A program made the translations under genes and the position numbers. A stretch of 33,780 nt of DNA. Origin: Nevskia sp. (GTDB lineage Bacteria > Pseudomonadota > Gammaproteobacteria > Nevskiales > Nevskiaceae). The stretch spans positions 1-33,780 of the forward strand of contig JAUXYM010000016.1 in NCBI GenBank assembly GCA_030694365.1, in the 5' to 3' direction. Below, piece after piece: positions 7,046 through 27,898 of the stretch (position 1 is the stretch's first letter; each line of letters opens with the position of its first letter). Below the pieces are notes generated by a model. The model was not told the origin of the DNA. It did not search any database and saw only the letters and a program-made list of their open reading frames with translations.

Positions 7046-7175
7046 CCAGAACGTTTTCAAGTCGAGTGAACCCATAAATTCCCGTCATGCCCGCGAAGGC
7101 GGGCATCCAGTTTTGAGGTGTGCGCACTGCTGGAAACAGAGAACTGGATTCCCGCCTGCGCGGGAATGACAAGTG
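7046..7175. repeat. REPIN-like inverted palindrome pair, copy 1
   Basis: Two palindromic arms in inverted orientation (7084-7112 GTCATGCCCGCG..., and 7142-7170 ending GGGAATGAC) are separated by ~29 bp. The left flank (ACGTTTTCAAGTCGAGTGAA, then CATAAATT) matches, in reverse complement, the outer flank of copies 2 and 5, so the mobile unit is larger than the palindromes. It lies between the sigma factor and kinase genes. Confidence 0.85.
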
Positions 7176-7251
7176 TTTGCAGGCCTCGGTCTATCAGGCA
7201 AACGTAATCGGCGCGCCGAAGCGGACATCGCCGACGTTGTGGTCTTGATGC

Positions 7252-14306: not shown

Positions 14307-14320
14307 TCACCGTCAGGCCG

Positions 14321-14465
14321 TTTCCCTTTGAATCCGTACAGAACACTCGTCATTCCCGCACAGGCGGAAATCCAGTTCTGACGCGGCGCATGAGGCCGAA
14401 ACTGGAGGCCCGCCTGCGCGGGCATGACGGAATTTATGTGTTCGTTTGACTTGAAAACGCTCTAG
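14321..14465. repeat. REPIN-like element, copy 2
   Basis: About 145 bp, from TTTCCCTTTGAATCCGTACA to GACTTGAAAACGCTCTAG. The two inverted arms (GTCATTCCCGCACAGGCGG... and ...CCTGCGCGGGCATGACGG) lie inside. Both outer flanks match copy 5 (27751-27898), which sets the element borders better than the palindromes alone. Confidence 0.85.
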
Positions 14466-20652: not shown

Positions 20653-21246
20653 TCAAGCAGGCATTCCTTGGGGAGCGAAAGCCGCGAGCCAGTCGGCACG
20701 GCGGCTTTCGAAGTACGCGAGCGGGCCGCTGCTCACGAGGTTCGGATGGGGAAACTGGCGGTCGGCCAGACGCGTCAAGCCAATGTTGCCCAGCACGCGT
20801 TGCGAAACCCCATGATCGAGATCGGTGATCGCGCTGATCACCTCGAGGTTCTTCCGCGTGTAGCCATAGAGCATCAGCGCCAGCGCCATTTCGGTGGCGT
20901 AACCCTGGCCCCAATGCACTTGGGCGATGCGATAGCCGACCTGGATCAGCGGCTCGCCGTGGATGTGGTTCAGGCAGTGCATGCCGATGATTTCGCTGGA
21001 CACGCGCAGGGACGTCACCCAGATGCCGAAGCCCGGATGCTGACCGTAGTAAGCCGTGATCCGCTGCTCATACATGGCCTGTGATTGCTCGGCAGTCAGC
21101 ACGCCACCGAGATAGCGCATCACCGCCGGGTCCGCATTCATCGCGATCAGCGATGGCAGATCGGCCTGCGTGTAGCGCCGCAGCACCAGCCGCGCCGTGC
21201 TCAGGCCATCGCCGGCATCGGCGGGCATTGCCGTTGTCAGACTCAT
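20653..21246 (-). CDS. RimJ/RimL-type GNAT acetyltransferase
   Basis: The protein has 197 residues from ATG 21246 (MSLTTAMPADAGDG). Typical RimJ/L-like motifs: STARLVLRRYTQADLPSLIA, the central QVGYRIAQVHWGQGYATEMA with the acetyl-CoA loop, and LDHGVSQRVLGNIGLTR (the N-x-x-S-x-x-V-x-x-N-x-G pattern). Its start overlaps the atuE stop as ATGA and its stop is 11 bp before the atuF start, so it is fully inside the atu operon. Such enzymes acetylate protein N termini or small amines. A role in terpene catabolism is not known; co-translation suggests it is kept with the pathway. Confidence 0.85.
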   Translation of the reverse strand: MSLTTAMPADAGDGLSTARLVLRRYTQADLPSLIAMNADPAVMRYLGGVLTAEQSQAMYEQRITAYYGQHPGFGIWVTSLRVSSEIIGMHCLNHIHGEPLIQVGYRIAQVHWGQGYATEMALALMLYGYTRKNLEVISAITDLDHGVSQRVLGNIGLTRLADRQFPHPNLVSSGPLAYFESRRADWLAAFAPQGMPA

Positions 21247-22070
21247 GCCGGATCGGCCCATTTCGGCTTGCGCTTCTGCACGAAAGCCGCCACGCCTTCC
21301 GGCGCTTCGCTGCCGCGCACTGCCGTCGCGAACTTCTGCGCGGCGTCGTCGAGTACTTCGGCCATGTCCTTGCGGCCGACGTTGAGGATGATTGCCTTGG
21401 TCATCGCATTCGCTTCAGGCCCGCAGTTCATCACCTGCTGCAGCACGGCTGCGAGCTTGGCCTGCAGTTCGTCCTCGTCGACAAAGCCTTCGTGGACCAG
21501 GCCGAGACGCAGCGCTTCCGCGCCATCGAACTGCGCACCGGTAAGGCACTGGCGGCGCGCTGCGGTGATGCCGATGCGTTCCGCCACGAACGGCGCGATC
21601 TGCGCCGGTGGCAGGCCGCGGGCGGTTTCCGGCAGGCCGAACTTGGCATCGGCTTTCGCCAAGGCGACGTCTGATACGCAGGCCAGTCCGAAGCCGCCGC
21701 CAAGCACCGCACCTTCGCAGATCGCGATCACCACCTGCGGCGCACGGCCGGCCTTGTGCATCACTTCGCCGAACGCCCGCGAATGCGCGGCGACCAGATC
21801 GGCTTCGCCCGGCGCCGGTGCTTGCAGGCCTCCGGCGATCATTTCCTTGAGATCGCCGCCGGCGCAGAAATGGCCGCCCGCGCCGCGCAGCACGATCGCC
21901 CGCACCTCGCGATCGTCATGCACGGCATCGAACACGGTGCCGATCGCCGCAACCATGTCGCGGGTCATCGCATTGCGCACTTCCGGCCGTTTCAGCGTGG
22001 CGTAGACGACGCCGCGCTCGAAGCGGGTCGGAAAATGGGGGTGTTGCCGAAGGTCTGCCAAGTCCATCAC
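21243..22070 (-). CDS. atuE: Isohexenylglutaconyl-CoA hydratase (enoyl-CoA hydratase family)
   Basis: The protein has 275 residues, starting at one of two consecutive ATGs (22070 or 22067). Crotonase-fold motifs: GHFCAGGDLKEM (first oxyanion-hole segment), EGAVLGGGFGLACVSDVALA (second) and FGLPETARGLPPAQIAPFV. The last differs from the P-G-A-G-G-T-Q of ordinary hydratases and is typical of AtuE/LiuC-like branches. In the acyclic terpene pathway AtuE adds water to isohexenylglutaconyl-CoA, the carboxylase product. LiuC (methylglutaconyl-CoA hydratase) is the alternative. Context with a geranyl-CoA carboxylase beta subunit favours AtuE. Confidence 0.82.
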   Translation of the reverse strand: MMDLADLRQHPHFPTRFERGVVYATLKRPEVRNAMTRDMVAAIGTVFDAVHDDREVRAIVLRGAGGHFCAGGDLKEMIAGGLQAPAPGEADLVAAHSRAFGEVMHKAGRAPQVVIAICEGAVLGGGFGLACVSDVALAKADAKFGLPETARGLPPAQIAPFVAERIGITAARRQCLTGAQFDGAEALRLGLVHEGFVDEDELQAKLAAVLQQVMNCGPEANAMTKAIILNVGRKDMAEVLDDAAQKFATAVRGSEAPEGVAAFVQKRKPKWADPA

Positions 22071-22078
22071 TCACTCTT

Positions 22079-22460
22079 ACTCGTCATTCCCGCGAACGCG
22101 GGAATCCATCTCTCAAACTGCGATGCCGTCGAATAGATCATTCCAGTCCGGGTTTTCAACTTCGATCAATTCAATCTTCCAGGATCTGTTCCATTTCTTG
22201 ATCTGCTTCTCGCGTGTAATCGCCGATATTGCAGTGTTGTGCTGTTCGAACCACACAAGTTCATGGACTCTGTATTTTTTCGTGAACCCTTCAACGAGAT
22301 CATGCTTGTGTTCCCAAATGCGTCTTACCAGATCGGACGTAACGCCGACGTAAAGCGTCCCGTTCTTCTGGCTGGCAAGCATGTAAACGAAGAACTGCCT
22401 TTCCTTCATGCTTCGTCAACACCCTGACCGTGGATTCCCGCATTCGCGGGAATGACGAGG
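22079..22460. repeat. Split REPIN-like element, copy 3, enclosing a GIY-YIG gene
   Basis: Left arm 22083-22110 (GTCATTCCCGCGAACGCGGG...) and right arm 22431-22456 (TGGATTCCCGCATTCGCGGG...) are the same inverted pair as in the other copies. Here they are 320 bp apart instead of about 30-40, and a complete gene fills the space. It breaks the otherwise continuous atu operon between atuD and atuE. Confidence 0.8.
22113..22409 (-). CDS. Single-domain GIY-YIG nuclease (YhbQ/UPF0213-like)
   Basis: The gene encodes 98 residues. The GIY-YIG core appears as FVYMLASQKNGTLYVGVTSD (VYM...YVG variant), then the catalytic Arg region LVRRIWEHK. HELVWFEQHNTAISAITREK with the metal-binding Glu in REKQIKKW completes the fold. 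Members of this family cut DNA with one Mg2+ ion; stand-alone forms are poorly understood. The G+C content is clearly lower than in adjacent genes, suggesting a separate origin. It lies between the two inverted arms of a dispersed palindromic element, same orientation as the atu operon. A role in moving or maintaining these palindromes, like RAYT transposases for REPs, is a hypothesis. Confidence 0.9.
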   Translation of the reverse strand: MKERQFFVYMLASQKNGTLYVGVTSDLVRRIWEHKHDLVEGFTKKYRVHELVWFEQHNTAISAITREKQIKKWNRSWKIELIEVENPDWNDLFDGIAV

Positions 22461-22503: not shown

Positions 22504-23700
<1,197 letters not shown>

Positions 23701-23724
23701 GGTGCTCTCCAATTTGTTCGGATC

Positions 23725-23812
23725 GTCATCCCCGCGCAGGCGGGGATCCAGTTCTCGGTTGCCAGCGACGCGCAAAGGTCAAAACTGGATTCCCGCCTTC
23801 GCGGGAATGACG
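23725..23812. repeat. REPIN-like element, copy 4
   Basis: Inverted arms GTCATCCCCGCGCAGGCGGG... (23725-23755) and GGATTCCCGCCTTCGCGGG... (23785-23812) are about 30 bp apart, between atuC and atuD. It lacks the long outer flanks of copies 2 and 5. Confidence 0.85.
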
Positions 23813-26211: not shown

Positions 26212-27747
26212 ATGGCACGTCGAACCCGTCACTCCCTGGCGATTCGCCTCCTCGCTGGCCTCGCGGCCTGCGTCAGCCTGCCGTGTATCGGCGAAATTCT
26301 GGCTGACGATCCGGCGCTGACCACGCCGGCCCAGCAGAAAGCGCCGAATGCGTTTGCCGAGGGCTCGCCGAAGCCAGTGCTGAACTGGGGCAAGGGCGAC
26401 GGCAAGAGCTACTGGCTGACCGCGTTCGACATCATCACCTTCGACGTGCTGCTGAATCGGGTCGATCGTTATCTGATCGACAAGGACGATTACAACGTCA
26501 CCCTGGACAGCTTCCGACGCAACCTCGGCGGCAAGTGGGTGGTCGACAACGATCCGTTCGCGATCAACCAGTTCGGGCATCCGTATCAGGGCTCGATGTA
26601 TCACGGCTTCGCACGTTCGGCCGGCCTGAGCTACTGGGAATCATCGGCCGCGACCCTGCTCGGCAGCCTGTTCTGGGAAGTCAGCGGCGAAACCACGCCG
26701 CCATCGATCAACGATCAGTTCACCACCGGCATCGGCGGCAGCTTCCTCGGCGAGCCGCTGTTCCGCCTGTCCAGCCTGCTGCTGGAAAGCGGCACCGGCC
26801 GCCCCGGCCTGCTGCGCGAACTGGCCGCAGCCCTGATCTCGCCCTCGACCGGCTTCAATCGCGCCGCCTACGGCTCGCGCTTCGACGGCGTGTTCCGCAG
26901 CCGCGCGCCGGCCGTCTATACCCGGGTACAACTCGGCGTGAACGTCCATGCCGATGTCAGCTCGAACATCGACGCCAATCGCGTGATCGGCGAGCCGGCG
27001 ATCCCGCAGAGCTACAAGAACGGCGAAGGCACGGCCGATTTCACCGTCGCCTACGGCCTGCCCGGCAAGCCCGACTACCGCTATGACCGGCCGTTCGACT
27101 ACTTCCATCTCGAATTCACCGCCTCGACCAAGAATGTGATCGAGAACCTGATCACCCGTGGCCTGCTGATCGGCGAACCGTACTCGGTGGGCAACAATGT
27201 TCGCGGCGTCTGGGGCCTGTACGGCAGTTACGACTACATCTCGCCGCAGATCTTCCGGGTGTCGACGACCTCGGGCGGCATCGGCACCACCAACCAGGTG
27301 TGGCTGTCGGACAAGGTCGCACTGCAGAGCACGGCGCTGGCCAGCCTTGGTTACGGCTCGGCCGGTGCGATCCGCGGCGCCGGAGAGCGCGACTATCACA
27401 ACGGCATTGCCCCCCAAGGCCTGCTGACTTCGCGGCTGATCCTCGGCGATCGTGTTTCCTTCGAAGCGACCCTGCGCGACTACTACGTCGGCGGCCTGGC
27501 CTCGCGGGAAACCTCGGGCAGTGAAAACATCGCCCGCGCCGAAGTCGCGATGACCGCGCGGATCTACAACCTGCACGGCCTGACCCTGAAGTACACGCAC
27601 TCGCGCCGCGACGCGCGCTATGACGACACTGGCAATACCCGCCAGAGCGTCGGCGTGTTCAGCCTCGCCTACAGCTATCTCGGCCAGACCCGCTTCGGCG
27701 CCGTCGACTGGCGACCGCAACTCGGCGAGCAGGCTCCGGCTCCCTAA
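26212..27747 (+). CDS. DUF3943 protein, exported, outer-membrane-type
   Basis: The protein has 511 residues from ATG 26212 (MARRTRHSLAIRLL), preceded by CCGAGG. An in-frame ATG at 26167 overlaps the regulator's stop as ATGA, but it would put 15 polar residues before the signal peptide. The signal peptide ends near residue 29. The DUF3943 signature is visible: WVVDNDPFAINQFGHPYQGS, MYHGFARSAGLSYWESSAAT and SINDQFTTGIGG. The C-terminal ~300 residues are alternating amphipathic strands ending with FSLAYSYLGQTRFG, compatible with a beta-barrel. The role is unknown. Placed directly after the terpene regulator, it may help uptake of the hydrophobic substrate. Confidence 0.8.
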   Translation: MARRTRHSLAIRLLAGLAACVSLPCIGEILADDPALTTPAQQKAPNAFAEGSPKPVLNWGKGDGKSYWLTAFDIITFDVLLNRVDRYLIDKDDYNVTLDSFRRNLGGKWVVDNDPFAINQFGHPYQGSMYHGFARSAGLSYWESSAATLLGSLFWEVSGETTPPSINDQFTTGIGGSFLGEPLFRLSSLLLESGTGRPGLLRELAAALISPSTGFNRAAYGSRFDGVFRSRAPAVYTRVQLGVNVHADVSSNIDANRVIGEPAIPQSYKNGEGTADFTVAYGLPGKPDYRYDRPFDYFHLEFTASTKNVIENLITRGLLIGEPYSVGNNVRGVWGLYGSYDYISPQIFRVSTTSGGIGTTNQVWLSDKVALQSTALASLGYGSAGAIRGAGERDYHNGIAPQGLLTSRLILGDRVSFEATLRDYYVGGLASRETSGSENIARAEVAMTARIYNLHGLTLKYTHSRRDARYDDTGNTRQSVGVFSLAYSYLGQTRFGAVDWRPQLGEQAPAP

Positions 27748-27750
27748 AGC

Positions 27751-27898
27751 ATTTTTCCTTCAAATCCTTACAAAGCACTCGTCATTCCCGCGCAGGTGGG
27801 AATCCAGTTCTGATGCGGTGCGCTACGGCCCAAACTGGATGCCCGCCTGCGCGGGCATGACGGAACTTTTGTGTTTATTCAACTTGAAAATGCTCTAG
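27751..27898. repeat. REPIN-like element, copy 5
   Basis: 148 bp, the closest relative of copy 2, from ATTTTTCCTTCAAATCCTTA to TTCAACTTGAAAATGCTCTA. The inner arms start at 27783 and end near 27863. Its right edge supplies the TAG that ends the SDR frame (27895-27897). Confidence 0.85.

Follow-up and report, generated by a model that had tools for sequence, protein, structure and literature searches.

Analysis of a 33,780-nucleotide stretch of Nevskia sp. DNA (positions 1 to 33,780, forward strand, of contig JAUXYM010000016.1 in assembly GCA_030694365.1; hereafter the window, at its full length) revealed a ~376 bp element in which a gene for a small GIY-YIG nuclease lies between two inverted hairpin arms. 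This arm-gene-arm architecture recurs in many lineages, and residues 72 and 74 of the enzyme correlate with a base in the arm stem. The change of these presumed DNA-reading residues in step with the repeat suggests that the enzyme is the missing handler of these repetitive extragenic palindromes (REPs) and probably their spreader.

The sequence-only reading had placed a complete, lower-G+C nuclease gene between inverted REP-like arms, and this description held. The two arms, hairpins at 22083-22108 and 22431-22456 that extend to 29 nt each as inverted repeats (22080-22108 and 22431-22459), are 97% complementary and separated by 322 nt containing an intact open reading frame (ORF) of 98 aa, whose G+C of 0.465 compares with 0.652 for the window; none of 670 sampled windows of the same size was equally low. 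DNA hairpins were predicted for the arm on the 3' side of the gene (22080-22112, -8 kcal/mol, z -3.2 against shuffles) and on its 5' side (22427-22459 of the minus strand, -10.7 kcal/mol, z -5.0). The protein matched Pfam PF01541 (E 3.4e-16, 59.8 bits, cut-off 22.6), identifying it as a member of the GIY-YIG superfamily.

Covariation analysis connected particular enzyme residues with the arm sequence. Corrected mutual information, computed for the 184 loci at which an arm could be typed under the looser of the hairpin rules given below, yielded z scores of 8.5 for stem base 6 with residue 74 and 7.7 for the same base with residue 72, compared to 4.1 for the next best of 784 combinations (8 arm positions by 98 residues). 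Tallies of base by residue at the 98 loci with standard 20-nt arms associated C arms with K72 (60/66) and N74 (54/66), G arms with E72 (13/16) or Q72 (2/16) and with K74 (11/16), T arms with K74 (9/9), and A arms with A or S at position 72 (7/7) and K74 (6/7). The 34 of these loci that derived from a sample of the window's phylum were consistent by themselves for C, T, and A arms; just two of them have G arms, and these carry E or Q at position 72 and Q or H at position 74.

Phylogenetic pair analysis used the best tree, built without residues 70-76. Across its 18 independent pairs (mostly on unsupported branches), residue 72 followed the arm in 14.5 and opposed it in 0.5, and the corresponding values for residue 74 were 13.7 and 0; these were the top two of the 98 columns. 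The switch is directly visible between the sister loci L027 and L029 (support 100/95), where C arms accompany the residues KKWNR and T arms KAWKR. The intervening tryptophan was also linked to the repeat, as loci with W73 replaced by G carried arms of the GTCATTGCGAG family on both sides in 11 of 12 cases versus 0 of 231 other loci, and the replacement required at the fewest seven changes on a quick tree.

Comparison across homologs supported the generality of the arms. Inverted repeats scoring at least 15 flanked 169 of the 241 scorable homologs (of 243) versus 13 of 624 other ORFs (at least 100 aa) at the same loci. A passenger gene that happened to sit in repeat-rich intergenic DNA might be expected where a repeat is as common as in this genome (225 arms); this comparison, together with the covariation involving particular residues, led to the rejection of that explanation, whose probability is practically negligible. 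For a species-genome collection with many metagenome bins, the best 80 of at least 566 confirmed matches were kept, the record titles of which span many phyla, and inverted repeats scoring at least 16 were identified around 55 of 79 loci versus 2 of 400 random windows. The family was present in 102 of 398 genomes of the phylum sample (E <= 1e-15), and among the matches listed 145 loci (L136-L280; at least two places at contig ends left out) included 96 with inverted repeats scoring at least 15, compared to 2 of 725 random windows.

The arms were further classified by a typed hairpin, GTC-stem-loop-stem-C[CT]A, that was found on both sides of 59, on one side of 26, and on neither side of 13 in a set of 98 loci, with 980 control windows giving 3 on both sides and 33 on one side. 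A looser version of this rule assigned arms within ~280 nt to both sides of 123, one side of 61, and neither side of 59 of the 243 homologs, compared to both sides of 6 and one side of 180 of 1,215 control windows. A strict, shorter-range tag-and-tail rule divided the 243 loci into tag-outward on both sides (81), tag-inward on both sides (17), same-facing (20), one-sided (48), and absent (77). At least 11 untyped loci carry arms of another kind, and arms with stems other than CATTCCCGC belong to the system. The arms of L256, L260, and L265 (e.g., GTCATTCTAGGG...) have far longer loops than those in the published description of the repeat, as far as that description was available.

The window contains five inverted hairpin-repeat pairs, the nuclease element and four gene-less pairs with 28-35 nt between their arms (Table 1). 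The sequence-only reading had described the four as further copies of the inverted pair; their presence and short spacing were borne out, with one difference, one arm in each being a stem variant. For this reason the exact 9-mer CATTCCCGC numbered only six copies, compared to 0.70 expected, and none of 100 shuffles reached six. For the stretch 27777-27863, which covers one gene-less pair, the predicted fold of a single strand of DNA had -36 kcal/mol (z -7.7). Genome-wide, 225 arm matches with up to three mismatches versus none for a reversed-pattern control demonstrated that the repeat is real and abundant. In genome G002, 48 of 57 arms make 24 inverted pairs, 23 without and one with the gene, all in the same tag-out orientation. 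Elsewhere, the arm hairpin of L177 was no more stable in DNA folding than its shuffles (z 0.79). Three of the gene-less pairs in the window (within 7048-7178, 14310-14465, and 27742-27898) have similar sequence beyond the arms, forming composite repeats of ~130-156 bp.

Homologs were identified in 18 of the 41 genomes searched, including the window genome, which has three, each between inverted arms and one with the different stem TACCGGC/GCCGGTA. All 15 loci of the genus are armed on both sides, including L015 where a nested repeat splits one arm. Every one of the 12 genus genomes with the gene has arms of the two stem kinds counted (up to two mismatches; 7 to 211 copies), while four of the six genomes without the gene had none and G007 and G009 had 72 and 73. 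The TACCGGC share of arms was 0-0.48 in five genomes with only C-type enzymes versus 0.31-0.86 in five with only G-type enzymes (exact p 0.016), a comparison without G000 and G001, in which both enzyme types occur. Loci L009 and L010 occupy one site in G001 and G003, with neighbor proteins 94% and 87% identical; one element combines a G-type enzyme with CCGGC arms, the other a C-type enzyme with CCCGC arms, and arm type and enzyme type differ together at this single site.

Occupied and empty versions of the window site were identified in the genus by matching the acyl-CoA dehydrogenase gene at 1e-100, which placed 16 of 18 genomes including the window genome. In five of these, window genome included, the spacer of 387-503 nt contains the gene with its two arms, and in eight the spacer of 23-172 nt contains neither, such that gene and arms occur together or are missing together at this site; the three remaining genomes stand outside this count as no hydratase gene was found beside the dehydrogenase.

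The empty sites bear on the strongest rival explanation, a homing-type parasite that invades pre-existing REP pairs by cutting and repair copying, with the repeats independent of the gene. Homing nucleases with the GIY-YIG fold are known, I-TevI being the type enzyme, and the element resembles such systems in its common catalytic domain and element-encoded nuclease; it differs in having a single 98-aa domain and a target that would be a short hairpin present genome-wide. Homing endonuclease profiles matched only weakly, with TIGR01453 at 20.9 bits against a cut-off of 56.05, so that the protein falls outside that family. The repeats also exist without the gene, and the shared tag-out orientation of the pairs in G002 would suit an invader of existing pairs. 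The eight empty relatives, however, lack arms at the window site and thus offer no gene-less REP pair there, although this concerns one site only. Duplex cutting at 200 or more genomic sites should moreover be lethal, so a folded substrate would be needed for a homing enzyme as well. Finally, ten or more standard arms were found in 35 of 102 gene-bearing versus 20 of 296 other genomes of the phylum sample (p 1e-10, uncorrected for kinship). On balance, a homing origin was considered unlikely.

The sequence-only reading had envisaged a possible REP/nuclease system new to this group; the repeat itself is not new, as it fits the already described CGTC REPs (Di Nocera, De Gregorio, and Rocco, 2013, PMC3733652). 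In the portion of that survey available, these are defined by a CGTC or TGTC tag, a stem of 8-9 bp starting with AT, a loop of 4-5 nt, a CCA tail, and occurrence as dimers, and they include Neisseria dRS3 and Rickettsia RPE-4/RPE-6. The same portion of this defining survey reports them from five phyla and describes the superfamily as being without a dedicated transposase, leaving its mover open; "GIY" occurs 0 times in the text of PMC3733652. Both arms of the window element have the CGTC tag, an 8-bp stem starting with AT, a 4-nt loop, and the CCA tail, and the 225 arms of the genome and the pairs of G002 match the high copy number and the mostly inverted dimers of the class.

The closest parallel in organization is the REP-associated tyrosine transposase (RAYT), or REPtron, with its REP doublets forming hairpins (REPINs), for which the available parts of the sources describe a gene between two inverted REPs, common gene-less inverted REP pairs, and a repeat type tied to the enzyme type (Nunvar, 2010, PMC2817692; Bertels and Rainey, 2011, PMC3116915). 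The gene of the present element likewise lies between inverted REPs, with repeat type tied to enzyme type. However, according to the same sources RAYTs belong to the Y1 tyrosine transposases and their REPs have a GT(A/G)G head, whereas the enzyme here is a GIY-YIG nuclease of unrelated fold with CGTC-tagged repeats. With neither a Y1 HUH-tyrosine transposase nor a GTAG/GTGG head, both enzyme class and tag fail, and the system resembles RAYT/REPIN in action and is not a member of it. Among the papers listed in full-text searches of the open-access literature (preprints and most subscription papers fall outside this scope), none linked GIY-YIG enzymes to REPs by title or abstract, and term searches of Nunvar (2010), Bertels (2011), Nunvar (2013), and a 2024 review of miniature inverted-repeat transposable elements gave no such link. 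The sole open-access paper with both "GIY-YIG" and "RAYT" as whole words names them as separate genes.

As the sequence-only reading had noted, the window has no RAYT: no Y1 match was found there, and one (C121) was found elsewhere in the genome. Movement of the repeats by such a distant Y1 transposase could be imagined from the occurrence of Y1 proteins in 30 of the 41 genomes searched, the window genome included. Nevertheless, none of 30 Y1 loci had these arms in the surrounding sequence, which was covered up to ~1.5 kb to either side; G003 has 57 arms of one kind and 52 of the other without a Y1 match, and G012 and G013 have Y1 matches and neither arm kind. The CGTC REPs are likewise unassociated with Y1 in the available text of the 2013 survey (Di Nocera et al., 2013, PMC3733652). 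A RAYT acting in trans was therefore not favored and has a very small probability.

Table 1. Positions of the nuclease element, bordering genes, and gene-less arm pairs in the window.
Feature	Position	Strand	Remarks
GIY-YIG nuclease gene	22113..22409	minus	complete ORF, 98 aa, stop included; PF01541 match
Arm adjoining the 3' end of the gene	22082..22108	plus	CGTC tag, 8-bp stem ATTCCCGC/GCGGGAAT, loop GAAC, tail CCA
Arm adjoining the 5' end of the gene	22431..22457	minus	CGTC tag, 8-bp stem ATTCCCGC/GCGGGAAT, loop GAAT, tail CCA
Codons for N74, W73, and K72, putative arm-reading residues	22188..22196	minus	covariation, W73->G loci, structure model
Enoyl-CoA hydratase gene	21243..22070	minus	site border, empty-site marker; PF00378
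Acyl-CoA dehydrogenase gene	22504..23709	minus	site border, empty-site marker; PF00441/PF02771
REPIN-like inverted arm pair without gene	7084..7170	.	35 nt between arms (arms at 7084/7145)
REPIN-like inverted arm pair without gene	14349..14428	.	28 nt between arms (arms at 14349/14403)
REPIN-like inverted arm pair without gene	23725..23811	.	35 nt between arms (arms at 23725/23786)
REPIN-like inverted arm pair without gene	27781..27861	.	29 nt between arms (arms at 27781/27836)

The catalytic positions of the enzyme are conserved. Alignment of 243 homologs displayed near-invariant E67 (243), Y20 (241), G22 (240), R30 (240), and N86 (241); 12 of the 243 loci were dropped from one alignment step (stop, X, or fewer than 80 aa), and the folded alignment A2 comprised the window and 88 loci. 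The nuclease gene is under purifying selection, with a ratio of nonsynonymous to synonymous substitution rates (dN/dS) of 0.086 between the window gene and the G010 copy, values of 0.086, 0.15, and 0.17 for the three close genus pairs L001-L007, L001-L008, and L003-L017, and a median of 0.47 over 1,242 pairs with moderate synonymous change, none above 1. A structure model (mean predicted local distance difference test score 93.9) placed residues 72-74 at the end of a modeled helix 60-72 and in the turn preceding helix 75-85. The closest solved structure by sequence was the UPF0213 protein PDB 1zg2 (E 1.1e-6), an entry titled hypothetical, which was also the closest fold (E 1e-3), followed by Slx1 chains (E 4e-3 to 6e-2) and, with weak scores, the UvrC N-domain; none of the fold matches had an E-value well under 0.001. 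PADLOC defense models gave no family at E <= 0.1, and a known anti-phage defense gene was rejected on this result.

Slx1, a near fold, acts with its partner Slx4 on branched DNA, and a role in clearing or resolving the repeat hairpins or cruciforms for the benefit of the host, with the repeats spreading by other means, would agree with its place among the closest solved folds. The low dN/dS of close pairs, the sites shared within the genus, and the existence of arm-rich genomes without the gene are also compatible with housekeeping. Such a role, however, leaves unexplained both the frequent framing of the gene by two inverted arms and the pairing of arm types with enzyme types, and it was judged distinctly improbable. 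Slx1 is not known to be framed by repeats.

The favored interpretation is that the arm, the GIY-YIG gene, and the inverted arm would form the autonomous unit of the CGTC-REP system. The enzyme would read the arm hairpin, notably stem base pair 6, via residues 72-74, and the extruded hairpin would probably be nicked or cut near its CGTC foot. Short gene-less elements of two arms would be non-autonomous, REPIN-like relatives, probably copied in trans. The nuclease was the only domain found in the protein and no strand-joining enzyme was seen, so the copying step would rely on host replication or repair for joining. This mechanism as a whole was considered likely, with appreciable room for doubt. 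Recognition of the arm by the enzyme is strongly supported, and we infer that it binds the arm; it may also be expected to cleave a substrate that is folded or branched, Slx1 being among the nearest folds. The proposal of the sequence-only reading that the enzyme is the mobilizing or copying factor of the repeat family gained strong support from arm framing across lineages, covariation, and joint presence and absence, while copying and mobilization are steps that we infer.

Several results weigh against this interpretation. One-sided arms in 180 of 1,215 control windows under the looser rule imply that some single arms of the covariation set arose by chance. With 98 short proteins, the tree has poor resolution, and supported branches alone gave six pairs, most often five with the arm, none opposite, and one unchanged (median sign test 0.06). 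Base 6 was equal in both standard arms of 64 of 64 elements, hardly above bases 7 (62/64) and 8 (60/64; 49 for base 3), and therefore contributes little. Flank comparison assigned the 15 genus loci to three shared sites (5, 5, and 2 loci) with three loci alone, so most copies were inherited and movement is rare; no new insertion was observed, and the element encodes no joining enzyme. Most homologs are associated with palindromes, yet 59 of 243 under the looser and 77 of 243 under the stricter rule have no typed arm, so recognizable arms do not accompany every homolog. In 67 of the 102 gene-bearing genomes fewer than ten arms were counted, and in 38 none, the standard pattern alone being considered.

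The converse case, palindromes in relatives without the gene, also occurs and counts against strict dependence of the repeats on it. G007 and G009 are examples in the genus, and among 15 arm-rich genomes picked for a missing or distantly matched gene, 13 had no homolog at E <= 0.001 and the remaining two (G023 and G368) had distant matches only. Several of the gene-less genomes are fragmented, less so G143 (20 contigs) and G378 (50 contigs); arms therefore persist without the enzyme, and strict dependence was rejected. REPtrons are likewise absent from some GTAG species in the available part of the 2013 survey (Di Nocera et al., 2013, PMC3733652). G007, G009, G030, G143, and G378, among others, combine many CGTC arms with no detectable member of the nuclease family.

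Extended to the whole superfamily, the autonomous-unit interpretation would define a widespread minimal class of mobile element, a single-domain GIY-YIG nuclease between two hairpins, that drives the CGTC REPs. Such an element would mobilize its own sequence as well as short arm pairs by cleaving hairpins and relying on replication or repair by the host, and its residues 72-74 would contain a readable code for the stem base; for this broader claim the chances appear evenly balanced. If true, it would bring a second, unrelated enzyme class into REP biology and provide a compact nuclease in which two or three residues might determine the preferred hairpin. With a dedicated nuclease and a co-varying recognition code, what moves the CGTC REPs can be tested directly, using a single small protein and short oligonucleotides.

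Searches of mobile replicons returned no match in 50,697 phage records, on which a phage origin was rejected, and matches in 34 of 72,556 plasmid records, of which 29 of 30 among the matches listed were longer than 300 kb. Beyond the genus, a related arm pair adjoins L016 (56% identity) on one side, other inverted repeats enclose L019, and a single arm of the GTCATTGCGAG kind occurs at L020, while no inverted repeats were seen at the distant matches L021 and L023. The distant GIY-YIG genes L022 (repeats at 1390-1413/1849-1872) and L025 (1428-1467/1806-1845), of another genus and with 30-37% identity, are flanked by inverted repeats of different sequence, and framing by inverted repeats may thus extend beyond this GIY-YIG family. 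In L003 (1489-1833), L017, and L018 the nuclease ORF extends into the 3' arm, which encodes its last residues (..KTGFPPARE).
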